The notes beneath the pieces were generated by a model. It was not told the DNA's origin and did not search any database. It saw only the letters and a list, made by a program, of their open reading frames with translations. DNA of 64,000 nt, from contig NC_015945.1 of assembly GCF_000224085.1 (NCBI RefSeq), positions 3,650,501 through 3,714,500 of the forward strand. The letters are read 5' to 3'. This DNA is from Allomuricauda ruestringensis DSM 13258. GTDB taxonomy: Bacteria; Bacteroidota; Bacteroidia; Flavobacteriales; Flavobacteriaceae. The translations under genes and the position numbers were made by a program. Position 1 is the stretch's first letter; each line of letters opens with the position of its first letter. Below are positions 49,634 through 61,170 of this stretch, in pieces.

Positions 49634-49661
49634 TATTAAACTCCGCCGTTTATGCCACAAA

Positions 49662-49690
49662 AAATAGGGCAATCCAAGACTGCCCTATTT
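49662..49690 (-). terminator. Intrinsic terminator before the PUL 2 sigma gene
   Basis: On the minus strand AAATAGGGCA pairs with TGCCCTATTT around a 9-nt loop and runs into a T-stretch. It ends transcripts coming from the right, that is, from the promoter at 50098-50164 through the frame at 49695-50072. It therefore isolates that small unit from PUL 2. Confidence 0.75.
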
Positions 49691-49694
49691 CAAA

Positions 49695-50072
49695 CTAACT
49701 AAACGACTTAACAATTATGTAAATATTTACGATGCTAGGTAACTTTAGTATACCATTATGTTTGTTTCCTCTCATAACACTACTAAGACGACCATAAGTT
49801 GAAATAGGGTTAAAAATTTTTAAATAATTTATGTTCCAGCACGTCACCACGTGTTTATCCATTTCAGAATCCATTTTGGAAAATAGTCCTGTACATGCAA
49901 TTAAACCCATTATGGGCTGAACTCCCTGCCCAGACACATCATCATTTAAGGCACATTGAAAACCATCTTTTTTCTTGGACAAAAGCAAATGCTCGATATG
50001 GTTTGGACCCAACGAGCATAAAATGTACAAACAAGGCTCAATAAAAGAGAATGGAGGTCGGGGGCTGAACAT
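49695..50072 (-). CDS. Possible small gene (or untranslated RNA) under the shared 41-bp element
   Basis: A 125-codon frame starting at ATG 50072 and stopping 5 bp before an intrinsic terminator. I recognise no family; there is no signal peptide and six cysteines are scattered. By composition alone I would dismiss it. What supports it is context: a promoter nearly identical to that of the giant T9SS gene lies upstream, and the distance from the TAnCTTG box to the ATG is the same within 3 bp. Promoter, frame and terminator together form a complete unit of about 430 bp. It could equally be a small regulatory RNA with a chance frame. Confidence 0.35.
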   Translation of the reverse strand: MFSPRPPFSFIEPCLYILCSLGPNHIEHLLLSKKKDGFQCALNDDVSGQGVQPIMGLIACTGLFSKMDSEMDKHVVTCWNINYLKIFNPISTYGRLSSVMRGNKHNGILKLPSIVNIYIIVKSFS

Positions 50073-50097
50073 ATAGTAAAATCAATGTTTTCAAACA

Positions 50098-50164
50098 CAA
50101 GATAACTTACCATACCTTCAATAAAAATACGTACACCAGTACGATTTTTACGTAGGGGTACGTA
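50098..50164 (-). promoter_or_regulatory. Promoter with 41-bp activator-like element, copy B
   Basis: Positions 50124-50164 match 58801-58841 at 34 of 41 bases. The distal half contains TACGTAGGGGTACGTA, two TACGTA palindromes around four G, identical in both copies; the proximal half has diverged TACG/GTAC half-sites. Reading on the minus strand, a TATCTTG box (50098-50104) follows after exactly 19 bp, as in copy A. It lies 14 bp past the stop of the response regulator gene and probably binds that protein. Confidence 0.7.
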
Positions 50165-50178
50165 TTTCTGGCTTATGA

Positions 50179-50820
50179 TTATAGTGACAATATTAAATCC
50201 TTATACTTGGAAATCCAGGAAGCCCATTGGTCTCCGCCACCCAATTCCAATTTTTGGATGATATTGCTTCTATGCTTCTGAACGGTCCGCAAAGATATCA
50301 ACAATTCCTCGGCAATTTCCTTGGACGTCTTTGACTGCGCCACCATTCGAAGAATAGTGCGTTCTGAAGAAGACAGTAGTTTTAGTTTTTTTAGCTGTGG
50401 ATTAATGGTTGTTTCCACCATTTGTTCAAAGGTCTTGCTAAAGTACGTTTCCCCTGCGCTCACCTTTAGGATACACCTTTCCATTTCCAAAAAAGGTTCT
50501 TCTTTAAGCAAATAACCACTGATTCCCAGTTGTTTGGCCCTATAAACAAGCCCTTCCTCCTTATGGGAAGTAAGTAGGATAAAACGGGTAGTACAGCCTG
50601 CATCCGTTGCCTTTGTTATCACTTCTATTCCAGAAAGCATGGGCATTTGAATATCCAAAATAGCAATATCGGGTCTTAGGTCCAATAGTTGTTCCAAGGC
50701 CTCTAAGCCATTGGTTGACTGAGCAATCACATTATATCCTTTGGATTCAAGCTCATCAACCAATCCTTTCAACAACAAAGGATGGTCATCGGCCACCAAT
50801 ATGGTATGTGCATTATGCAT
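50179..50820 (-). CDS. NarL/LuxR-family response regulator
   Basis: A 213-residue cytoplasmic regulator. The receiver domain begins HTILVADDHPLLLKGLVDEL; the phosphoacceptor is the Asp of IAILDIQMPMLSG, with Thr/Ser in ILLTS and Lys in LKEE completing the site. The C-terminal LuxR-type helix-turn-helix reads LSSSERTILRMVAQSKTSKE, then LISLRTVQKHRSNIIQKLEL. ATG 50820 overlaps the kinase stop by 8 bp, which decides this start over the longer frame to 50889. The 41-bp elements at 50124 and 58801 are the likely targets. Confidence 0.93.
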   Translation of the reverse strand: MHNAHTILVADDHPLLLKGLVDELESKGYNVIAQSTNGLEALEQLLDLRPDIAILDIQMPMLSGIEVITKATDAGCTTRFILLTSHKEEGLVYRAKQLGISGYLLKEEPFLEMERCILKVSAGETYFSKTFEQMVETTINPQLKKLKLLSSSERTILRMVAQSKTSKEIAEELLISLRTVQKHRSNIIQKLELGGGDQWASWISKYKDLILSL

Positions 50821-52858
50821 TTGTAATGGGGATATGGGCATTAATAGATGTTCCTCTATTCTTTGTGGTCCGGATTTGAACATTACCACACATCATCTGG
50901 ATTCTTTTTTCCATGGTTTTGAGACCTAGGCCTTGACCCTTATGTTCTTCATTATAGTCAAAACCTATTCCATTGTCCGTAATCAGTAATTTGACACAAT
51001 CTGTCTTCTTAATAATCTCAATCAATACTTCGGTCGCTTGTGAATGTTTTACCAAATTGGTCATGGCCTCTTGTACAAATCTGTAAAAATTAACATTTTG
51101 CTGTTTTTCAAAGCAATCGTCTATCGCATCCATTTCCAAGGTAAAAATAATATTGTACTTCTCATCAAAAGTATAGATTAGCTGCTGTATGGCTCCGGTT
51201 ATTCCCAAGTTTGCCAATGCAGGGGGAAGAAGCCCTTTTGCTACCATTCTGACTTCTTCCAAGGTATCTTGGGACAGTTTCAACAGTTCTTTTTGTCTGG
51301 TATCCCTTGCTTTTTTTGACATCAAGGTCAGTTGTTGCCCAACGCCGTCGTGCAATTCTCTTGCGATATATTCCTTCTCCCTTTCCTGTTGCCATAACAA
51401 ATCTTGTGAATATTTTTCGGTAAGTTCTTGCTCCTTTTTGGCAAACCGCCGATTTCTGTACAACCATAAAAAACCAGATCCCCCAACAAGCATCACACCA
51501 CCAAAGATCATCCAATAGGTCTTTTCCTTATTTTGTGCATCGAGAATTTTAATATCCTGCTTTTGACGTGCAATCTCCATATCCTTCTTTTCCGCTTCAA
51601 GTTCGGCTTGAATAAAAGCGAATCTCCTCCTAGCGGTTACATTGTTGACAGAGTCTTTCATCCTTACATAATTTTTAAAGTGCCGCAGGGATTGTGGCAA
51701 ATTGTTCATTTTCTCATAGATATTGGACAACAACAACTCAGAGCGCATAATATTTTGGGCTTCCAAAGTTCCCTTTACACCTTCATGGGCTTTTTGGGCG
51801 TACCTTTCTGCTTGAGTAAGTTGGTTGTTGGCCAATGCATTCCAACTCATGGCCAAATGATAGTATGTTTCTAAAAAAGGATTGTTAATATGAGGACCTA
51901 TCTTGGAAACAAGCTCCCGTTTATATAAGTCCGAAGTATCCCGTATCCCGTTCCTGGCATAAGTGGAAACGGCATAGGAAAGGGTCAATATATTCACTAT
52001 GCCCTGTATATCTGATTTATGGCTCCGCTCTTTAAGTGCCAATCGTATTTGATGAAGCTCTTCGGCCATGTCATTTTTACGGTTGGCCTCATTACAGGCA
52101 GCCAAACGTGCCATGGTAACCACTTGATACTCTTTTATGGCCGTTCCTCTTTCAAATACCTCTTGACGGGCTTTCTCTGCCCTATCATATAATCCATTTT
52201 TACCGTAGAGCTGTGCCAAACCATTCTGCGCCCACAAATACATCAATGTATCCTTTTGATGGGCAAATATTTTCTTGGCCTTTTCAAAATAGCCCACACT
52301 CTGGGAAATCTTGTTCACCTTGTCACTATTTTCACCAGCTTTTAAATAAGCGTAACCGAATTCATATAAGGAGGAATCCTTTTGCTTTTCCATGAACTGG
52401 ATTCCCTCATCCAATATGTCCAAGGATCTTTTATAATATTGCATAAATGTTGCCGCCTCGGCATAAGTAATGTAAAACAATGATATTTGCTTTTCATCAC
52501 TGCTATGTTGGACATAAGGCTGATAGTTCTCCAATATCCCGAATGCCTTGGTATGGTTAATGGATTCGTAAATATAATAGCCCCCTAATGCATTTGTGAA
52601 CAACAAGGCTTCATTCCATTGTTCTTGTACCAATGATGAATCTCGATACTGAAGAAAAATATTGGCAATCCCATCGTTGTTCAACCGTCCATCATCAAGT
52701 AATTCCCGTAAATGATTCACTTTTGTTTCAAATGTTGCCATTGAATCCAAAATGACCGACACATTATCACGGTCTTCCCTTGTTTGGGAACTACATATTT
52801 CGGAAACCAAACAAAAAACTATGATCAGTATGGGTATGGGGAATTTATACACAAGCAT
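50813..52858 (-). CDS. TPR-containing sensor histidine kinase (HisKA_3 type)
   Basis: A 681-residue kinase. A signal/anchor (PILIIVFCLVSEICSSQ) is followed by about 400 residues of TPR-like helices in the periplasm (SLYEFGYAYLKAGENSDKVN, then YLWAQNGLAQLYGKNGLYDR), one membrane helix (TYWMIFGGVMLVGGSGFLWL), a coiled linker, the phosphoacceptor box ARELHDGVGQQLTLMSKKAR, and an ATPase domain with N-box VQEAMTNLVKHSQA and G-boxes DNGIGFD and GQGLGLKTM. It has no recognisable small-ligand domain, so the TPR array is the probable sensor, perhaps of a secreted or envelope protein. It is co-translated with the response regulator. Confidence 0.92.
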   Translation of the reverse strand: MLVYKFPIPILIIVFCLVSEICSSQTREDRDNVSVILDSMATFETKVNHLRELLDDGRLNNDGIANIFLQYRDSSLVQEQWNEALLFTNALGGYYIYESINHTKAFGILENYQPYVQHSSDEKQISLFYITYAEAATFMQYYKRSLDILDEGIQFMEKQKDSSLYEFGYAYLKAGENSDKVNKISQSVGYFEKAKKIFAHQKDTLMYLWAQNGLAQLYGKNGLYDRAEKARQEVFERGTAIKEYQVVTMARLAACNEANRKNDMAEELHQIRLALKERSHKSDIQGIVNILTLSYAVSTYARNGIRDTSDLYKRELVSKIGPHINNPFLETYYHLAMSWNALANNQLTQAERYAQKAHEGVKGTLEAQNIMRSELLLSNIYEKMNNLPQSLRHFKNYVRMKDSVNNVTARRRFAFIQAELEAEKKDMEIARQKQDIKILDAQNKEKTYWMIFGGVMLVGGSGFLWLYRNRRFAKKEQELTEKYSQDLLWQQEREKEYIARELHDGVGQQLTLMSKKARDTRQKELLKLSQDTLEEVRMVAKGLLPPALANLGITGAIQQLIYTFDEKYNIIFTLEMDAIDDCFEKQQNVNFYRFVQEAMTNLVKHSQATEVLIEIIKKTDCVKLLITDNGIGFDYNEEHKGQGLGLKTMEKRIQMMCGNVQIRTTKNRGTSINAHIPITNA

Positions 52859-52971
52859 AAAAATACCACTAATACATAAACTTTTATGAGCGTAAACTCA
52901 AATATCTTTTGCTGCTTATCCTGATGGTTTTGACGCACTCATCCAGTATACCCATCGGATGCATCATGGGC

Positions 52972-53874
52972 TTAATTTATATTTGAAATAAAATCATATC
53001 TCAAAAAAAATTCATGCGTACCACCAGTATAAGGGCGGATTCCCGATACCGGGACTTCGTAAGCATACCCCAACATCAACTTTTTCCCTATCATAAAGCT
53101 TCCCAAGCCACCAACGGCATCATAACTATTAAAACGATAGTTGGCCCCTATCATAAATCGGTCATGAAAACTGACATTGGCCCCGGCATCGATGGAAACC
53201 GGTGCAGCATCCGTCAAAATCACCATGGACCTTGGCTTCAATGTGATGGAATTGGCAAGTGGAAAATCGTATCCTGCCGTAACATATAAATTGGGTCTGT
53301 CCGAAACCCTGAAGGATGTGTCGGTGTCCACTATATAATCCACATTGAACATTTGAGGTACGGATACTGCCACATACCAGCGTTTTCCATATAAAAAACT
53401 TCCCACCCCCACGTTTGGCGACCAACTGTCCGAATAATAATTAAAATAGGGATCCGATTGCACATCAGGTCTGTTCAATAGTTCCGGACTCAAGGAATAA
53501 TGGGTAAAGCCTGCCTTGATTCCAAAAGCTAGGCGAGTAGTCCTACCTACTTGCAGCGTATAAGAGAAATCGCCATAGAGGTAATCAAACTTTTCTTCGC
53601 CCAAAGCATCGCTCACAAGCGAAAGCCCCAGCCCTACCTTTTCATTGCGCAAAGGGGTATGTGCCGAAAACATTTGTGTGGATGGTGCTCCCTCGAAACC
53701 ACTCCATTGTGAACGGTGCATCAAAATGGCCGAAAAGCCTTTTGTACTTCCTGCAAATGCAGGGTTGATACTAACGGGGTTGTACAAGTATTGTGTGAAC
53801 TGTGGTGCCTGTTGGGCTATGGCATGGTGATGGCACACAACCACAACGACCATCAATAATATAAACTTCTTCAT
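52972..53874 (-). CDS. PorP/SprF-family type IX secretion membrane protein
   Basis: A 300-residue outer-membrane beta-barrel-like protein with a signal peptide (ILLMVVVVVCHHHAIAQ). The family start AQQAPQFTQYLYNPVSINPA, then FAGSTKGFSAILMHRSQWSG, is the PorP/SprF hallmark, and the final strand ends in HEFFLRYDF. Such proteins are encoded directly after type B T9SS cargo genes and help secrete or hold that cargo on the surface. It follows the giant gene by about 9 bp, so the two form one transcript. Confidence 0.95.
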   Translation of the reverse strand: MKKFILLMVVVVVCHHHAIAQQAPQFTQYLYNPVSINPAFAGSTKGFSAILMHRSQWSGFEGAPSTQMFSAHTPLRNEKVGLGLSLVSDALGEEKFDYLYGDFSYTLQVGRTTRLAFGIKAGFTHYSLSPELLNRPDVQSDPYFNYYSDSWSPNVGVGSFLYGKRWYVAVSVPQMFNVDYIVDTDTSFRVSDRPNLYVTAGYDFPLANSITLKPRSMVILTDAAPVSIDAGANVSFHDRFMIGANYRFNSYDAVGGLGSFMIGKKLMLGYAYEVPVSGIRPYTGGTHEFFLRYDFISNIN

Positions 53875-53883
53875 CTTAATCTT

Positions 53884-56800
53884 TTATTTTGTACCTATAT
53901 AGATACTACCCCTAATGGGTTCCTTCTTGGAGTCCAACACCTGTATCACGTAGAAATAGGTTCCTGAAAACAATTTTCCTTGGGTATTGCCCTGTGTGGC
54001 ACCCCAATCGTTTTGATAATCATCCGACTGATATACTTGCTGCCCCCAACGATCAAAAACCATCAGTGAGATGTTATTTCCATGAGTATCGGGACCATCG
54101 ACAATAAAATAATCGTTGTGTCCATCTTCGTTCGGTGTAAGTACCTTGGAAACCTCTATCCTAGCTTCTCTGTCCGGATTACAACCTTCTTCCACGCTTA
54201 CTTCAACAACCACCTGATTGGCACACATTCCTACCTGTTCGGTATAGGTAAAGGTGTACGTACCCATCGACAAGGTTGATGGATTGATTACCGAGCCATC
54301 TAAATTGATATTTTCGTTTTGGGATTCCCAGGTTCCACTCCCTGCTTCACCTTCAATTTTTTGGTAGAGGTCCAAATGGGTTTTGGTAATGCATACCGAA
54401 ATATTTTCATCGGTACTTATCTGTGTTGGAAGTACTGTGATATGTTGCTCAACACGCTTTTCGTTTCCATTGGAATCGGAGGCTATCCAGTAACGTTCAA
54501 TTTGATACCCTTCTCCTAAAATGGTCTCATTTTGACCATATTCAATTTGAACCTCTATATCACAATTATCCTCAAAAACCAGATTTGGGATTTCTGGCAC
54601 TTGATTGCAATACACCGTAAGATCCGTATCCAATGCTGAAATCAACTCAGGAGCCATGGTATCCTCAACGATCACGTGCTGTGTTTGTGTACTGGTGTTC
54701 CCAGCTTCGTCTTCGTAGGTCCATGTGACCACCGTGGTTCCTTGCTGTGTGATGGGCAAAACAGCGTCGTGCGAAACTGTTACCGCACTACTGCAATTGT
54801 CCGTGGCCGTTGGGGCCGTTAGACTGCTTATCTTACATTCATCGGCAATATCCGCTAAACTCGCCTGGTCGGGAACTGGTGCCTCCGTATCTGCAATGAT
54901 TACATGCTGTGTTTGCGTACTGGTGTTCCCGGCTACATCTTCGTAGGTCCATGTGACCACCGTGGTGCCCTGCTGTGTGATGGGCAAAACAGCATCGTGC
55001 GAAACTGTTACCGAACCGTTGCAATTATCCGTGGCCGTTGGGGCCGTTAGACTGCTGACCTCACATTCATCAATAACATCGTTTAAACTCGCCTGATCGG
55101 GAACCGGTGCCTCCGTATCTGCAATGATCACATACTGTGTTTGCGTACTGGTGTTCCCGGCTGCATCTTCGTAGGTCCACGTTACCACCGTGGTACCTTT
55201 GGCCGTAATCGGCAAAGTTGCATCATGGGTTGCTGTTAGCAAACCGTTGCAATTATCCGTTGCCGTTGGGGCCGTTAGACTGATTACCTCACATTCAGAT
55301 GTGATATCCGATAAGCTCACTTGATTGGGAACTGGTGCATGGGTATCCTCTATAATCACGTTCTGTATTTGGGTACTGGTATTTCCAGCTGCATCTTCGT
55401 AGGTCCATGTGACCACCGTAGTACCTTGGGATGTTATCGGCAAAATAGCATCGTGGGTTGCCGTTACCAAACCGCTGCAATTATCCGTGGCCGTTGGGGG
55501 TGTGAGATTGCTTAGCTCGCATTCTGCATTTACATCTGGCAGACTTGTCAAATCAGGAACTGGAGCCAAGGTATCCTCCACGGTAACAGTTGCCGTACAT
55601 TGGACACTTACCCCATTATTGGCCGTTACGGTTAGTATTACTTCATTCGTTCCTAGGTTTGAACAATCAAATTCTGTAACATCGAGGGTAAGCGTTATTC
55701 CATTATCCTCATCATAAGAGCCGTTATCTATTTCTTCAGCGCCTATAATCACCCTACCGTTTGCATCTAGCGCTACTATAATATCCTGGCAAATGGCCAC
55801 GGGTGCCCTGTCTTGTAACTCATAGGCGCCCATATCAACAGTACCACCATTGGCATAGTCGTAAATGCGCTTATTTCCAGCCAAATCGACTGCCGCTTCG
55901 GGTGCCCCTAACGATACCACAAAATTATTGTTCCCAGCATTTATGGCAGGACTGGTCGCTTTTACCCTAAAATCATATTGGGCTGCATCCACAAACTCAG
56001 GGGCTGAAATCAAATTACGGGCCTGCGTCACACTGCCTGAAACAACTCCATTAAAAGTCAATGAATTATACATCCGTCCGAATCCACCAACCAGGTTGAT
56101 TTGGCCATTGGTACCAGTATTATTGGAAAGAATGGAGTTCGCAACCAACAATGCCCCATCGCTTAAATGGACACCTCCTCCCATGTTCGCCGTATTATTG
56201 GCCAGCGTAGAATTCATAATTTCAACTTCACCGGATTCACATGAAACAGCACCTCCAGCAGTGGAGGCAACATTATCATACAGCAAGCAACTTATCAATT
56301 TGGTATCACCGGTAAAACTGATTACCGCGCCTCCCACACCATTGATGCCATCACTAAAGGCAATATTATCGTGCAGTATGCTATTCTTTAAAAGAAAGCT
56401 GGCATTTTGGTTTATATAAAGCCCTCCCCCGGTTCGGCCAATGGCCACTTGACTATTGTCCGTAGGATCATCCGCATAGGAATACGCAATGATAAGTCCA
56501 TCCAAAGTCACATTAGGAGTTGTCACTGTCACAATGGTATGGCTGTCCCCGGCATCTGCCACCGCATTTCCATTGAGATCCCCACTTAGGATGGTCGGCG
56601 CCGCTTTCCAATTCCGTTCGGCCGGTGAAGTTTCATTTCCGGTAAAGCCTCCCAAAAGGGTCACCCCTTCGGGAATGACAAAAGAATCATATTCGGATGT
56701 TCCCGGTTTGTAGGTGCCCTGGGCCACCCATATTTCCGTTAACCCACAATTCGCAGACAGGGCAAGTGCATCCTGTAAATCGGTATATGCATCGTTCCAC

Positions 56801-58746
56801 GAGGTTCCATTGTTTGATCCCGTCGCGTTCTCATCCACATAAATGATACCCGAACTGCGATCATAGGGGTCTTCCACGGTGACTGTAGCTGTGGCCGAAG
56901 CCGAGTTGTAGCCGTCATTTACCGTTAAAGTAACCGTATGCGTTCCCGCATCGGCACAGGTAAAATTGGTTTTGCTCAATGTTCTGGTAAAGGTGGTGTA
57001 ACAGCCATTGGCATCTATACTGTTATCGTCTATATCCTCTGGCCTTAGGATGGCGCCCCCATTACCATCCAGATAAATGGTAGCCGGTTTCGTTTTCACT
57101 ACCGGAGGCGTATTTTTGCTTATTTGGTACACCTTATTATAGGTAGCCTTATTCCCATATTGGTCGGTCACCTCAATGGGCACCAAAACATTGGTGCCTA
57201 TATCGGCACAGGTTGCGGTACGCGTACTGGCCACAGCGGTATAGCTACCACAATTTTCAGAAACATCGAAGGGACCTTCCGGTTTTAACTCTATAGAGGT
57301 ATTATGCCCCAATTCAATAAAATTGGTCTCCAAAAGCATATAGGGCGGGGTAGTATCCACTACGGTCACATTGGCCGTACAGATAGCCCCATTGCCCCTT
57401 GCATCAAGAACCGTTAAGGTAACTGGAACAGTACCAACGTCATCACAGCTAAAAGTTGTTTGTGATAGGGACATGGATGCGACATAAGCATTATCATAAG
57501 ATCCTGCATCAATATCGGCAGCCGTTATGGTAACGGTACCATCGGCCAATAAGGGATTTTCCGGATCAAGGGACACTGTAATATCGTTACATACTGCCAC
57601 AGGGGGCTGTTCATCATAAATGACCCTGTATTGTATATAACCAGTAACAGGAGCATTAGTCGTTCCTCCTTCTGTCTCCACTAGATCTTGTACCATACTA
57701 AGGTTGCCATACGATTGTCCGCCACCGCCGCCACGTTCCAAATCACCGCCACCACCACCAAAGTAACCGCCACCGCCACCGCCTGCTGCTCCTTTTCCTA
57801 AAACCTGATTTGAGCACTCCGTTTCTATGTTAAGATGTGGATAAAATATCGACCCTGCACCTCCACCGGCCCAGCCCGCACCACCTCGATTGACATCCCT
57901 AATTGTTATTTTTACACATCTAGGATCAAATAACCCTCCCGAACAATCTCCAGTATATAAATCAGTAGGTGGATGATATCCTCCTGCACCTCCTTGACTT
58001 GGCGGATTTCCCATAATTTCTCTTTCGAAAGGGAGACCAGGCTCAAAAGCATTATCGCGACTACCTCCACCTCCTGAAAACACATAATAAGTACCCTCTT
58101 CTATACTATTAACACGACCAACTATTCCTCTACCTCCTGCTCCATAATTAAATGTTAGAACTCTTGAACCGGCCTGCCCACAAGAATTTTTCCCATCTCT
58201 GGAAGTCCCGCCTCCATACCCATGGGAAACCATAGCTTCAATGGCCGCTCCCCCACCGCCGCCGGCAGCAACTGCAATGGGATTTGTAACTTGGTTGTAA
58301 GGGGTTATGGCAGTAGCCCCGCCACCGCCACCGCTGGCGGCAACATCATGAGCATCGGATTCCCCACGAGATCCAATAAAAAAATGGAGTCGGTCTCCTG
58401 CATTTTCACTGGTGATGGGCAAGGTAAACCTAACCGTGCCACCTTCCCCGCCCTGTCCTATTTTCTGCGCCACCAAACCTTGCCAGGTGGCACGTCCCCC
58501 ATCGCCTCCTTTAAGAATGAACTCCACGGCTACCACCCCGTCTTCCAATGTTGGCAAATAACCATCCATGGTGGCCCGGGTACGTGAATGACCTCCCCCT
58601 TCGTAGGGCAATGGAGTCCATTCGCTATTGGTCAAGTCTCCTACTTGTGTATGGGGTCGATTTACGGTTTGTCCAAACAGACTCGTTGAACATAAAACAA
58701 ATAAGATTAGTGAAACTGATCGTGATTGAAGTGATGATTTGGGCAT
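53884..58746 (-). CDS. Giant T9SS type B secreted protein with Gly-rich, HYR-like and beta-helix-like parts
   Basis: A 1620-residue secreted protein, signal peptide SVSLILFVLCSTSLFG. Residues about 60-370 are strongly glycine-rich (GGDGGRATWQGLVAQKIGQG, then GGGGGATAIT and similar), resembling the Gly-rich ALK-ligand-like domain. Next come HYR-like repeats (about 380-640), a region with YVDENATGSNNGTSWNDAYT and LILTNSTLANN-like repeats typical of choice-of-anchor Q / parallel beta-helix proteins (640-985), four tight HYR-like repeats of 76 residues (1061-1364), and a T9SS type B tail (VLTPNEDGHNDYFIVDG, then LMVFDRWGQQVYQSDDYQND). It is probably a surface adhesin or matrix protein, secreted through the PorP/SprF partner. 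Confidence 0.92.
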   Translation of the reverse strand: MPKSSLQSRSVSLILFVLCSTSLFGQTVNRPHTQVGDLTNSEWTPLPYEGGGHSRTRATMDGYLPTLEDGVVAVEFILKGGDGGRATWQGLVAQKIGQGGEGGTVRFTLPITSENAGDRLHFFIGSRGESDAHDVAASGGGGGATAITPYNQVTNPIAVAAGGGGGAAIEAMVSHGYGGGTSRDGKNSCGQAGSRVLTFNYGAGGRGIVGRVNSIEEGTYYVFSGGGGSRDNAFEPGLPFEREIMGNPPSQGGAGGYHPPTDLYTGDCSGGLFDPRCVKITIRDVNRGGAGWAGGGAGSIFYPHLNIETECSNQVLGKGAAGGGGGGYFGGGGGDLERGGGGGQSYGNLSMVQDLVETEGGTTNAPVTGYIQYRVIYDEQPPVAVCNDITVSLDPENPLLADGTVTITAADIDAGSYDNAYVASMSLSQTTFSCDDVGTVPVTLTVLDARGNGAICTANVTVVDTTPPYMLLETNFIELGHNTSIELKPEGPFDVSENCGSYTAVASTRTATCADIGTNVLVPIEVTDQYGNKATYNKVYQISKNTPPVVKTKPATIYLDGNGGAILRPEDIDDNSIDANGCYTTFTRTLSKTNFTCADAGTHTVTLTVNDGYNSASATATVTVEDPYDRSSGIIYVDENATGSNNGTSWNDAYTDLQDALALSANCGLTEIWVAQGTYKPGTSEYDSFVIPEGVTLLGGFTGNETSPAERNWKAAPTILSGDLNGNAVADAGDSHTIVTVTTPNVTLDGLIIAYSYADDPTDNSQVAIGRTGGGLYINQNASFLLKNSILHDNIAFSDGINGVGGAVISFTGDTKLISCLLYDNVASTAGGAVSCESGEVEIMNSTLANNTANMGGGVHLSDGALLVANSILSNNTGTNGQINLVGGFGRMYNSLTFNGVVSGSVTQARNLISAPEFVDAAQYDFRVKATSPAINAGNNNFVVSLGAPEAAVDLAGNKRIYDYANGGTVDMGAYELQDRAPVAICQDIIVALDANGRVIIGAEEIDNGSYDEDNGITLTLDVTEFDCSNLGTNEVILTVTANNGVSVQCTATVTVEDTLAPVPDLTSLPDVNAECELSNLTPPTATDNCSGLVTATHDAILPITSQGTTVVTWTYEDAAGNTSTQIQNVIIEDTHAPVPNQVSLSDITSECEVISLTAPTATDNCNGLLTATHDATLPITAKGTTVVTWTYEDAAGNTSTQTQYVIIADTEAPVPDQASLNDVIDECEVSSLTAPTATDNCNGSVTVSHDAVLPITQQGTTVVTWTYEDVAGNTSTQTQHVIIADTEAPVPDQASLADIADECKISSLTAPTATDNCSSAVTVSHDAVLPITQQGTTVVTWTYEDEAGNTSTQTQHVIVEDTMAPELISALDTDLTVYCNQVPEIPNLVFEDNCDIEVQIEYGQNETILGEGYQIERYWIASDSNGNEKRVEQHITVLPTQISTDENISVCITKTHLDLYQKIEGEAGSGTWESQNENINLDGSVINPSTLSMGTYTFTYTEQVGMCANQVVVEVSVEEGCNPDREARIEVSKVLTPNEDGHNDYFIVDGPDTHGNNISLMVFDRWGQQVYQSDDYQNDWGATQGNTQGKLFSGTYFYVIQVLDSKKEPIRGSIYIGTK
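54655..55566 (-). repeat. Four tandem 228-bp repeats in the giant gene
   Basis: The same landmark (GTGTTCCC or ATTTCC before the AGCTTCGTC-type block) recurs at 54695, 54923, 55151 and 55379, exactly 228 bp apart. Each unit encodes 76 residues: APVPDQASLNDVIDECEVSS, LTAPTATDNCNG, a HDAVLPI block and TTVVTWTYEDAAGNTSTQTQ. The two copies nearest 54655 are almost identical in DNA while the one nearest 55566 is the most diverged, pointing to recent duplication at the C-terminal side. Confidence 0.9.
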
Positions 58747-58774
58747 GTGAAAAAGTCTTTATGCTTTCGCGCCG

Positions 58775-58841
58775 CAAGTTATACCCGTATAAAATCAATT
58801 AAAATACGCACCCATGTACAAAATTTACGTAGGGGTACGTA
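58775..58841 (-). promoter_or_regulatory. Promoter of the giant T9SS gene with 41-bp activator-like element, copy A
   Basis: Positions 58801-58841 hold the same element as copy B, including TACGTAGGGGTACGTA at the distal end. A TAACTTG box (58775-58781) follows after 19 bp, and the gene's ATG lies 54 bp from the element. The element would overlap the usual place of the TTTG box, as expected for an activator-dependent promoter. Confidence 0.7.
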
Positions 58842-59052
58842 GGCCACAAGGTGTTCCGTAAAAAATATTTATGAATAATTGATAGTCAAAATATGATTTT
58901 ACAGAAATGGTATTCTTCTTAAGGTAAGGCTATCAATTATGCTATAATGGATGAGCCAGATGGTTGAGGCCACCAAAAACAGAAAATTTGAGCCATCCAA
59001 TACTTCACTGTAGTGATTTGAAATTCAGATTTTTGTGTCGTATTGGTGGGGG

Positions 59053-59089
59053 CTCATTTTTATCCGGCCAAGGTGGTATACTATGTCCG
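59053..59089 (+). repeat. Possible insertion-sequence end relic
   Basis: Contains ATCCGGCCAAGGTGGTATAC and matches the minus strand of 4677-4712 at about 31 of 37 positions. No transposase lies nearby. It is in the 456-bp gap (58747-59202) between the giant gene and the aconitase gene, where apart from promoter copy A I see no other feature. Confidence 0.4.
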
Positions 59090-59202
59090 GCGTTTCCAGG
59101 ATAGTGTTTCCCTATAAAATTTGTATCTTAAAAAGGAAACTCACGACAATATCTACCATTAGCAGGGTTTAAAACCTATTTCGTATAACATAAAACAATC
59201 CA

Positions 59203-61170
59203 ATGAAACCATTGAACGTCACCCAAAAGTTGATACAATCCCATTTAGTGCAAGGAGAAATGAAACCTGGAACTGAAATTGGTATCACCATTGACCAGGC
59301 ACTTCTTCAAGATGCTACCGGAACCTTGGTACAACTGGAGTTGGAAGCCATGGGGCTCGATAGGGCAAAGACCGAAGTGGCCGTACAATATGTGGATCAC
59401 AACCTCTTGCAAACCGATTTTAAAAATGCCGATGACCATCTTTTTTTGTACTCCGCCGCCCAAAAATTCGGACTGTGGTTCAGCAGACCGGGCAACGGGG
59501 TAAGCCATCCGGTACACATGGAACGTTTTGGCATTCCGGGAAAGACCTTGGTGGGTTCGGACAGCCATAGTTGCGCTGCGGGATCTTTGGGTATGTTGGC
59601 CATAGGCACGGGAGGACTGGATGTGGCTACCGCTATTGTAGGCCAGCCTTATTATGTGAAGATGCCCAAGATCATGGGCGTTAAGCTGACAGGAAAACTG
59701 CCCGATTGGGTGAGTGCCAAAGACGTTGTCCTCGAAATGCTTCGCCGGTACGATGTAAAGGGTGGAGTGGGAAAGATTATTGAATACCATGGTGAGGGAT
59801 TACAATATTTAAGCGCCATGGACCGTCACGTAATTGCCAACATGAGTGCGGAAATGGGGGCAACCACCACGGTTTTTCCGAGTGATGGGGAAACGAGACG
59901 GTTTTTAAAATCGCAAGACCGAGAAAAGGACTGGACGGAAATTTTGGCGGACAAAGATTGCACCTACGACCTAGAGGACGAAATTGTTTTGGACACCCTT
60001 GTTCCCTTGATTGCATTGCCCACAAGTCCCGGGAATGTAGTTCCCGTGTCAGAAGTTGAGGGGAGAAAGATAAGTCAGGTGGTAATCGGTTCTTCGGCCA
60101 ATCCCGGATTGCGTGATTTTTGGATGGCAGGCGCGATTGTAAAGGACAAAACCATACATCCCGAAGTATCGTTCGACATTAACCCGACCTCTCGGCAAAT
60201 CATCCAAAATATGATCGAAAACAGAGCCTTTGCTAATTTGATAAAGGCCGGGGGCCGCTTTCACCAGTCGGGGTGCATGGGCTGCATTGGGATGGGACAG
60301 GCTCCTGCAAGCGATTCCATAAGCTTGCGCACCATGCCCCGTAATTTTCCAGACCGCTCGGGGACCAAGGACGATCAGGTGTACCTGTGCAGTCCTGAAA
60401 CGGGCGCAGCTTCCGCCTTAACGGGCAAAATTACGGATCCTAGAACCCTTGAAAAGACACATGGTATGGCCTACCCGACATACGAGCCCCCAGAATTGGA
60501 AATAATCAATAAAGATATGTTGGTGCCACCCACCAAGCACAAAACAGAGATAAAGCTCAAAAAAGGGCCCAATATCAAATCGCTTCCCCATATGGAGGAG
60601 CTAAAATCGGAATATGAAGTTCCGATACTTTTAAAAATGGGTGACAACATTTCCACGGATGAGATCATGAAGGCCGGTGCCGAGGTACTTCCCTTTCGAA
60701 GCAATATTCCCGAAATCAGTAAATTTTCCTATACGGTCATCGATGACACTTTTTATGAAAGGGCCTTAAAAGCCAAGGAAAAATACGGGGGACACATTGT
60801 TGTGGCCGGTGAGAACTATGCCCAGGGAAGCAGCAGGGAACATGCGGCAATCGCCCCTAAATATTTGGGTCAAGTAGCGGTCATTGCAAAAGATTATGCC
60901 CGAATTGCTTGGCAGAACCTTGTAAATTTTGGTATTCTGGCCTTAGAGTTCGAGAATCCGGATGATTATGATATTTTGGAACAGGGGGCAATGGTAAGTT
61001 TCAAAAATTTAAGAAGGGATGTTGCCGAGCGTAATCCCATACGGGTAGTGGTAAAGAACAGGAATGACATACGAGAGGTCATATTGCGGCATAGTCTCAG
61101 TGATCGGCAGATAGAATTATTGATGAAGGGTGGTACCATTAACGATTTCAAGGAAAAGCTGGTCTCTTAG
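59203..61170 (+). CDS. Aconitate hydratase, Aquifex type
   Basis: A 655-residue cytoplasmic iron-sulfur enzyme that isomerises citrate to isocitrate. The iron-sulfur ligands are the Cys of SDSHSCAAGSLGML and the pair in HQSGCMGCIGMG; the C-terminal swivel domain has KMGDNISTDEIMKAGAEVLP and ENYAQGSSREHAAIAPKYLG with the catalytic serine and arginine. The short length, compared with about 900 for AcnA and AcnB, matches the Aquifex-type putative aconitase. Flavobacteria usually have a full-length aconitase elsewhere, so this copy may be an extra isozyme or act on a related acid. It stands alone on the plus strand. Confidence 0.88.
   Translation: MKPLNVTQKLIQSHLVQGEMKPGTEIGITIDQALLQDATGTLVQLELEAMGLDRAKTEVAVQYVDHNLLQTDFKNADDHLFLYSAAQKFGLWFSRPGNGVSHPVHMERFGIPGKTLVGSDSHSCAAGSLGMLAIGTGGLDVATAIVGQPYYVKMPKIMGVKLTGKLPDWVSAKDVVLEMLRRYDVKGGVGKIIEYHGEGLQYLSAMDRHVIANMSAEMGATTTVFPSDGETRRFLKSQDREKDWTEILADKDCTYDLEDEIVLDTLVPLIALPTSPGNVVPVSEVEGRKISQVVIGSSANPGLRDFWMAGAIVKDKTIHPEVSFDINPTSRQIIQNMIENRAFANLIKAGGRFHQSGCMGCIGMGQAPASDSISLRTMPRNFPDRSGTKDDQVYLCSPETGAASALTGKITDPRTLEKTHGMAYPTYEPPELEIINKDMLVPPTKHKTEIKLKKGPNIKSLPHMEELKSEYEVPILLKMGDNISTDEIMKAGAEVLPFRSNIPEISKFSYTVIDDTFYERALKAKEKYGGHIVVAGENYAQGSSREHAAIAPKYLGQVAVIAKDYARIAWQNLVNFGILALEFENPDDYDILEQGAMVSFKNLRRDVAERNPIRVVVKNRNDIREVILRHSLSDRQIELLMKGGTINDFKEKLVS

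Follow-up and report, generated by a model that had tools for sequence, protein, structure and literature searches.

The response regulator NarL of Escherichia coli recognizes heptamers of the form TACYYMT. According to parts of PMC7419079, it binds 7-2-7 sites next to the -35 region and in tandem. Here, we analyze a 64,000-nucleotide stretch of Allomuricauda ruestringensis DSM 13258 (assembly GCF_000224085.1, contig NC_015945.1, positions 3,650,501 to 3,714,500, forward strand; hereafter, the window), in which a regulator of the same family is encoded between two copies of a 41-bp promoter element. We conclude that the element is very probably the operator-promoter of this regulator, with tandem NarL-like sites from which transcription would be activated. 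The window regulator resembles NarL in combining a receiver with a GerE-family domain (the solved NarL structure 1a04 is its second-best solved relative, E = 2.9e-34), and the element resembles the NarL operators of ogt and yeaR in containing a 16-bp inverted TAC-N10-GTA site and, like ogt, in having one site beside the promoter and a second upstream (PMC7419079, in part). Unlike at ogt, with 33 bp between the sites, the spacing here is 20-21 bp. The half-site also differs, being TACGTA with GTA at bases 4-6 in nearly all elements, which does not fit the NarL heptamer, and the operator is joined to a Bacteroidota-type -7 box and typically lies 3' of its own regulator gene. By this comparison, the element would work like a NarL operator with another specificity; it is a new operator type within a known regulator family, and no published description of it was found by title or opening of the abstract among the matches listed.

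Promoters with the same -7 box are known from Flavobacterium psychrophilum, in which TAnnTTTG is the sigma-A -7 box and TAnnTTGY, at -12 to -5, defines class SM5, which includes a remFG-sprCDBF promoter tested by mutation (PMC9723704, in part). In both organisms, a promoter with a TAnnTTGY box precedes a giant adhesin gene of the type IX secretion system (T9SS) with sprF; unlike SM5, for which the SM5 section of PMC9723704 names no regulator or upstream operator, the element carries a fixed upstream operator, and 17 of the 40 elements analyzed below have TAnnTTTA or TAnnTTTG instead. A two-component system is tied to the T9SS in Porphyromonas gingivalis as well, where the PorXY-SigP cascade controls secretion components through an extracytoplasmic function (ECF) sigma factor (PMC4800418 and PMC7712824, each in part). 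The window system, unlike PorXY-SigP, appears to control cargo genes directly via a GerE-type regulator. The output domain of PorX differs from the GerE type. As in SprB-SprF/PorP-like pairs, the gene for a giant protein with a type B C-terminal domain (CTD) adjoins that of a PorP/SprF partner (PMC9143113, in part); unlike those pairs, the window pair is part of a gene run that also includes a dedicated kinase and regulator.

Two copies, three units and a fixed -7 box

Copies A (50124-50164) and B (58801-58841) match at 34 of 41 positions, with TACGTAGGGGTACGTA common to both, without a mismatch, at one end (50149-50164 and 58826-58841). After exactly 19 bp on the minus strand, a box begins in each, TATCTTG (50104-50098) in copy A and TAACTTG (58781-58775) in copy B, and an ATG follows after 51 bp in copy A (50072) and after 54 bp in copy B (58746). 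The original prediction, made from the letters of the window, had given these same figures, which our recount reproduced, and had held them to be hard to explain by chance: among 200 dinucleotide-shuffled pairs of both 150-bp promoter stretches, the best agreement was 27 of 41. When all 41-mers of the window were compared with one another, the only other pairs with at least 34 identities were internal repeats of the giant gene and two self-complementary hairpins. The 3.84-Mb genome holds the 16-mer at two exact places and at one more with two mismatches; the reversed pattern, with two mismatches permitted, is found at two places. The parts of the element are as follows.

58826-58841, minus strand: copy B, distal palindromic core TACGTA-CCCC-TACGTA, centered at about -64.5 from the predicted start
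58803-58810, minus strand: copy B, promoter-proximal third unit TGCGTATT, at element position 32 and on the -33 region
58774-58781, minus strand: copy B, -7 box TAACTTGC (TAnnTTGY), exactly 21 bp after the third unit
50149-50164, minus strand: copy A, distal palindromic core TACGTA-CCCC-TACGTA, 14 bp past the regulator stop codon, centered at -64.5
50126-50133, minus strand: copy A, promoter-proximal third unit TACGTATT
50097-50104, minus strand: copy A, -7 box TATCTTGT (TAnnTTGY)

From the box geometry, transcripts are predicted to start at about 50092 for copy A and 58769 for copy B, one position from the 50091 and 58768 proposed before.

In members of the regulator clade described below, the element consists of three TACGTA units, arranged as TACGTA-N4-TACGTA-N14/15-TACGTATT. 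We assembled a set of 40 non-identical elements lying at most 520 bp 3' of a regulator stop codon, with up to two mismatches in the core and one in the third unit, and with the -7 box ignored. TAnnTT stands exactly 21 bp after the third unit (30 bp from third-unit start) in all 40 elements, which include close relatives, so that the number of independent cases is smaller; at the other 49 offsets tested it occurs in at most 3 elements (mean 0.39). The box is TAnnTTGY in 23, TAnnTTTA in 10 and TAnnTTTG in 7, and both window copies have the first type. The same spacing recurs outside this set, in genome G279, at a second site in G195, and at copy B both in the window and in loci L025-L028. Every column of the core units, which form the 16-bp inverted repeat TAC-N10-GTA, has its consensus base in at least 38 of the 40 elements, and the gap between core and third unit is 15 or 16 in all 16 tripartite matches from 299 family genomes, with 12-18 permitted. 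It is to the third unit, not to the 16-mer, that the strictly fixed distance to the -7 box belongs; the original prediction had noted neither this unit nor its spacing. Of 39 loci with an open reading frame (ORF), 24 have an ATG at 88-101 bp from the start of the element, and the offset of the element from the regulator stop ranges from 1 to 462 bp.

These features suggest how the promoter may operate. A perfect distal dimer site (TACGTA-N4-TACGTA, 16 bp, TAC-N10-GTA) would be centered near -64. A proximal site would be centered near -43, with strong conservation restricted to its promoter-proximal half, TACGTATT; this half-site would replace the -33 box, exactly 21 bp before a -7 box that is most often TAnnTTGY. 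Once the kinase has been activated, two regulator dimers 20-21 bp (about two helical turns) apart would recruit RNA polymerase, contacting it from one face of the helix as NarL does from 7-2-7 sites. With the third unit sitting on the -33 region, the bound regulator could instead repress, the proximal half-site blocking polymerase at -33 until the block is lifted by the kinase signal. We regard this as unlikely, because the distal site is perfect, lies near -64 and is about two turns away from the proximal one, an arrangement suited to tandem activation (NarL at ogt being a comparable case), and because no more than 10 of the 40 elements contain TATTG, the closest sequence to a -33 motif.

Of the 29 loci with more distant regulators (L076-L104), 21 have a single palindrome of the type TACGTRN4YACGTA 3' of the regulator. 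The distance seen in the window's clade recurs in 17 of the 21, with 30 bp between the proximal half of the palindrome and a -7-like box. On this evidence, the proximal half-site would be the fixed contact, and the window's clade would have either gained the distal site or retained it. L080-L104 are mostly one sister clade beside sucB/sucA; the palindrome, at element position 52, is often TACGTGTTAACACGTA, and the -7-like box of the 17 loci is at position 40. An ATG or GTG stands exactly at the predicted, hence leaderless, transcript start in 16 of the 21 loci (CTG in a 17th) and opens a miniprotein of 43-47 aa with one hydrophobic stretch, 11 of which have NYFVS near the end.

Co-occurrence with one regulator clade

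The exact 16-mer is found at 12 places in 11 of the 299 family genomes (reversed control, one place), and we took 14-20 kb around the places in the 10 relatives. In 9 of the 10, the element lies at most 470 bp 3' of a regulator homologue, itself preceded by a kinase homologue. The tripartite pattern occurs at 16 places in 15 of the 299 genomes (control, one). Because some homologue is present in 140 of the 299 genomes at E 1e-45, we tested linkage on a close group, the 25 family genomes whose regulator scores at least 299 bits: the exact tripartite pattern is present in 14 of these 25 versus 1 of the 274 others (Fisher p = 1.7e-16), and in the lone exception, G279, a 270-bit homologue is 224 bp away from it. 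The distance of the pattern 3' of the regulator homologue is at most 250 bp at 14 of the 16 places and at most 470 bp at 15; the remaining site, 11.4 kb away, precedes another secreted-looking gene (1556 aa). With looser matching, a recognizable element is present in 21 of the 25 close-regulator genomes.

In the genus (71 genomes), a regulator of at least 325 bits is present in 5, and the element is exact in 4 of them and has one mismatch in the fifth; the 4 kb taken from a sixth genome, G352, whose homologue is weaker (259 bits), showed no element, and the exact pattern is absent from all 65 genus genomes in which the regulator search had no hit. A search with the regulator alignment yielded 429 loci, of which the best 80 were named; the nearest among the matches listed are Allomuricauda, Muricauda and Flagellimonas. 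On a regulator tree of 100 rows, all 41 rows with the tripartite element fall into one clade of 52 (support 98/83) and none among the other 48; for 9 of the 52 clade rows, no element was found within about 530 bp. At the level of the order, the full promoter with zero mismatches is found in 3 of 296 genomes: the window's own, G203 and G470. The original prediction had proposed that the NarL-type regulator is the probable binder, overlapping the -33 region as an activator would, and had looked to related genomes for the element to travel with the kinase-regulator pair. Linkage to one clade and the fixed spacing support this proposal: it was right about the element and probably right about its binder. 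A dispersed repeat unlinked to the regulator, which the original prediction had named as fatal to its case, was rejected: the genome holds just the two exact 16-mers, and the 65 genus genomes lacking a regulator hit hold none of the exact pattern.

Several points weigh against this interpretation, besides the relatedness among the 40 elements. In the tenth relative with the 16-mer (G168, locus L020), a bare core adjoins the beginning of a decayed gene for a secreted protein, and in the 20 kb taken there, no kinase homologue was found and only a distant regulator (E 9e-08). G250, G021 and G197 have a close regulator without a clear element, and in G235, also of the close group, the core is one base shorter, making 4 of 25. 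Presence of some homologue at the loose cut-off of E 1e-45 predicts little; only the close clade does. G470, from another family of the order, has the full promoter before a secreted-looking gene, and the 16 kb taken there hold only a distant receiver-GerE regulator (22%-26% identity), 5 kb off. Within the element, the proposed proximal dimer site has a left half that shows weak conservation and does not resemble TACGTA, and the degenerate core TACGTRN4YACGTA by itself is at chance level in the window's own genome (4 places versus 3 for the control), so that specificity resides only in the long form. As a separate observation, L021 and L032 share a glutamate synthase neighbor with L020 and have the regulator.

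The G470 match, together with the fact that binding is deduced from sequence, leaves some room for a different, unlinked DNA-binding protein that acts on the same neighborhood. We consider such a protein improbable, more so than repression, given that presence and absence of the element track the regulator clade, within one genus too, and that its usual place is directly 3' of the regulator gene. The regulator encoded between the copies is thus most likely what binds the element.

The gene block between the copies

The two copies frame a run of genes on the minus strand.

53884-58746, minus strand: giant type B T9SS surface protein, 1620 aa, with HYR_4C, HYR and CHU_C; the PKD match is weak
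52972-53874, minus strand: PorP/SprF outer-membrane partner, 9 bp after the giant gene
50813-52858, minus strand: histidine kinase with HisKA_3 and HATPase_c; the N-terminal TPR match is under the Pfam cut-off
50179-50883, minus strand: response regulator, receiver and GerE domain (NarL/FixJ type)
49695-50072, minus strand: small ORF, 125 aa, without a Pfam match
49659-49690, minus strand: likely intrinsic terminator (AAATAGGGCA...TGCCCTATTTTTT), directly after the small ORF

The order along the strand is copy B, giant gene, PorP/SprF, kinase, regulator, copy A and the 125-aa ORF, in agreement with the earlier placing of one copy before the giant T9SS gene and porP/sprF and of the other just after the response regulator. 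Both regulator domains score above the Pfam cut-offs (Response_reg, 77.1 bits; GerE, 54.3 bits), the receiver aspartate D77, in an LDIxMP context, is invariant among 10 aligned sequences, and a cognate kinase of the HisKA_3 type, with HATPase_c, adjoins. Comparison with L026-L028 places the real regulator start probably near 50820. From its sequence, the kinase is predicted to have a signal peptide, a periplasmic sensor and one transmembrane segment. CHU_C in the giant protein (82.6 bits) and PorP_SprF in its neighbor (249.3 bits) identify a type B CTD protein and its partner. The intergenic gaps are 9 and 113 bp, and the kinase and regulator genes overlap, so the first four genes possibly form one operon. 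Copy B would then switch on not only the giant protein and its PorP/SprF partner but also the kinase and regulator, in a positive feedback, and copy A would switch on the small gene ending at the terminator.

Four Flagellimonas/Allomuricauda relatives have an ORF at the corresponding position and in the corresponding frame (L025, 122 aa; L027, 144 aa; L028, 141 aa), and its N terminus is strongly hydrophobic in L027 and L028. The stem-loop with a T run after the small ORF, which is absent from the terminator-scan matches, is likewise present in the four relatives, so that the ECF sigma factor gene further on is probably not transcribed from copy A. That gene (49495-49055) is followed by FecR, and its listed ATG looks too late, as L027 reads a longer frame of 217 aa. 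Within the giant gene, 54659-55524 holds 3.8 tandem copies of a 228-bp unit (HYR repeats), some near-identical. Rfam detected one tRNA in the window and nothing more, and a sigma-70-type promoter scan is uninformative here (28 matches versus 24.0 in shuffles).

Lying after a regulator gene, the element could also act as RNA, as a hairpin or terminator that ends the regulator transcript. TACGTA-N4-TACGTA can pair with itself, T-rich sequence often follows, and the mean folding energy of the first 30 nt is -4.4 kcal/mol versus -2.1 kcal/mol for letter-shuffled controls. We nonetheless give this reading very little credence: the hairpin is weak, copy B has a divergent gene (aconitase, 59203, plus strand) as its nearest upstream neighbor, the offset from the regulator stop varies over 1-462 bp, and pairing explains neither the third unit nor the fixed -7 box. 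That the direct copies, 8.7 kb apart, are recombination sites or mobile-element ends by which the block could move or excise is least credible of all. In its favor, the window and four relatives have different genes listed upstream of copy B, and the distribution of the system within the genus is patchy. Against it, the 65 genus genomes lacking a regulator hit have no exact-pattern scar, the sequence common to L025 and L026 extends past the outer end of copy B, and the -7 box spacing would be meaningless for a recombination site.

Upstream of copy B, the plus-strand ORFs differ in L025-L028, L025 having a resolvase-like reading frame there, and the window (58842-59203) has the divergent aconitase; L025 and L026 have nearly all of the 40 bp before the copy B element in common. 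The system has the look of horizontal transfer, a close regulator being present in 5 of the 71 genus genomes.

Likely targets and sensors across relatives

Operator geometry is constant among the relatives, whereas kinase sensor parts and target genes vary. HisKA_3 and HATPase_c were found in all seven relatives' kinases scanned. TPR matches occur in the kinases of the window, L019 and L023 (above the Pfam cut-off in L019 only) and Y_Y_Y matches in those of L015, L016, L018 and L021 (above it in L015 and L021); the 434-aa piece of the L014 kinase that was scanned gave neither.

In relatives, the element usually lies 3' of the regulator with target genes behind it, the place that copy A has in the window, before its own small gene. 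Surface-protein genes frequently follow: by a crude N-terminal rule, 33 of 39 first genes encode secreted products. Pfam was run on 36 first genes, namely 34 of the 39 (leaving out L114 and L025, both repeats of the window, as well as L027, L118 and L120) and the two of the window, and returned HYR in 11, Por_Secre_tail in 11, Thiol_cytolysin in 5, PKD_4 in 5, YadA_head in 3, glutamate synthase in 2 and others in fewer. The Thiol_cytolysin matches (PF01289, 94-137 bits) are cytolysin-like lipoproteins encoded first after the element in L031, L048, L055, L074 and L125. The surface-protein rule has exceptions, as the glutamate synthase genes (L021 and L032) are non-surface and a second kinase comes first in L034. 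This last locus has tandem kinase-regulator pairs, the second directly after the element of the first. In L014, L019, L022, L023 and L129, the element is followed first by a small protein and next by a protein of the phage tail collar type (PF07484), Pfam-confirmed in the first four, where a giant secreted protein comes next, and recognized by eye in L129, where the core is one base shorter.

To our knowledge, few DNA-binding codes of Bacteroidota response regulators have been described, and little is established about how individual T9SS adhesins are switched on. For many species together, the element supplies an operator sequence along with a likely regulator, the kinase of that regulator and probable targets, and the strictness of its geometry makes transcript starts predictable. 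It also provides a regulated context for TAnnTTGY promoters, whose control the SM5 section of PMC9723704 leaves unexplained. Tentatively, and with rather less conviction than we attach to the operator itself, the system may be seen as a portable control cassette, in which one regulator lineage would hold constant, across the Flavobacteriaceae, one operator code of three TACGTA units in fixed phase, mostly with TAnnTTGY promoters, and sensors and surface arsenal would be exchanged between species: kinase sensor halves of TPR-like or propeller/Y_Y_Y-like type on the one side, and T9SS adhesins, collar and S74 tail-fiber-like proteins, cytolysin-like lipoproteins and YadA-head proteins on the other. 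With the operator lying 3' of the regulator gene, that position would serve as a plug-in site, at which newly inserted surface genes would fall under existing control.

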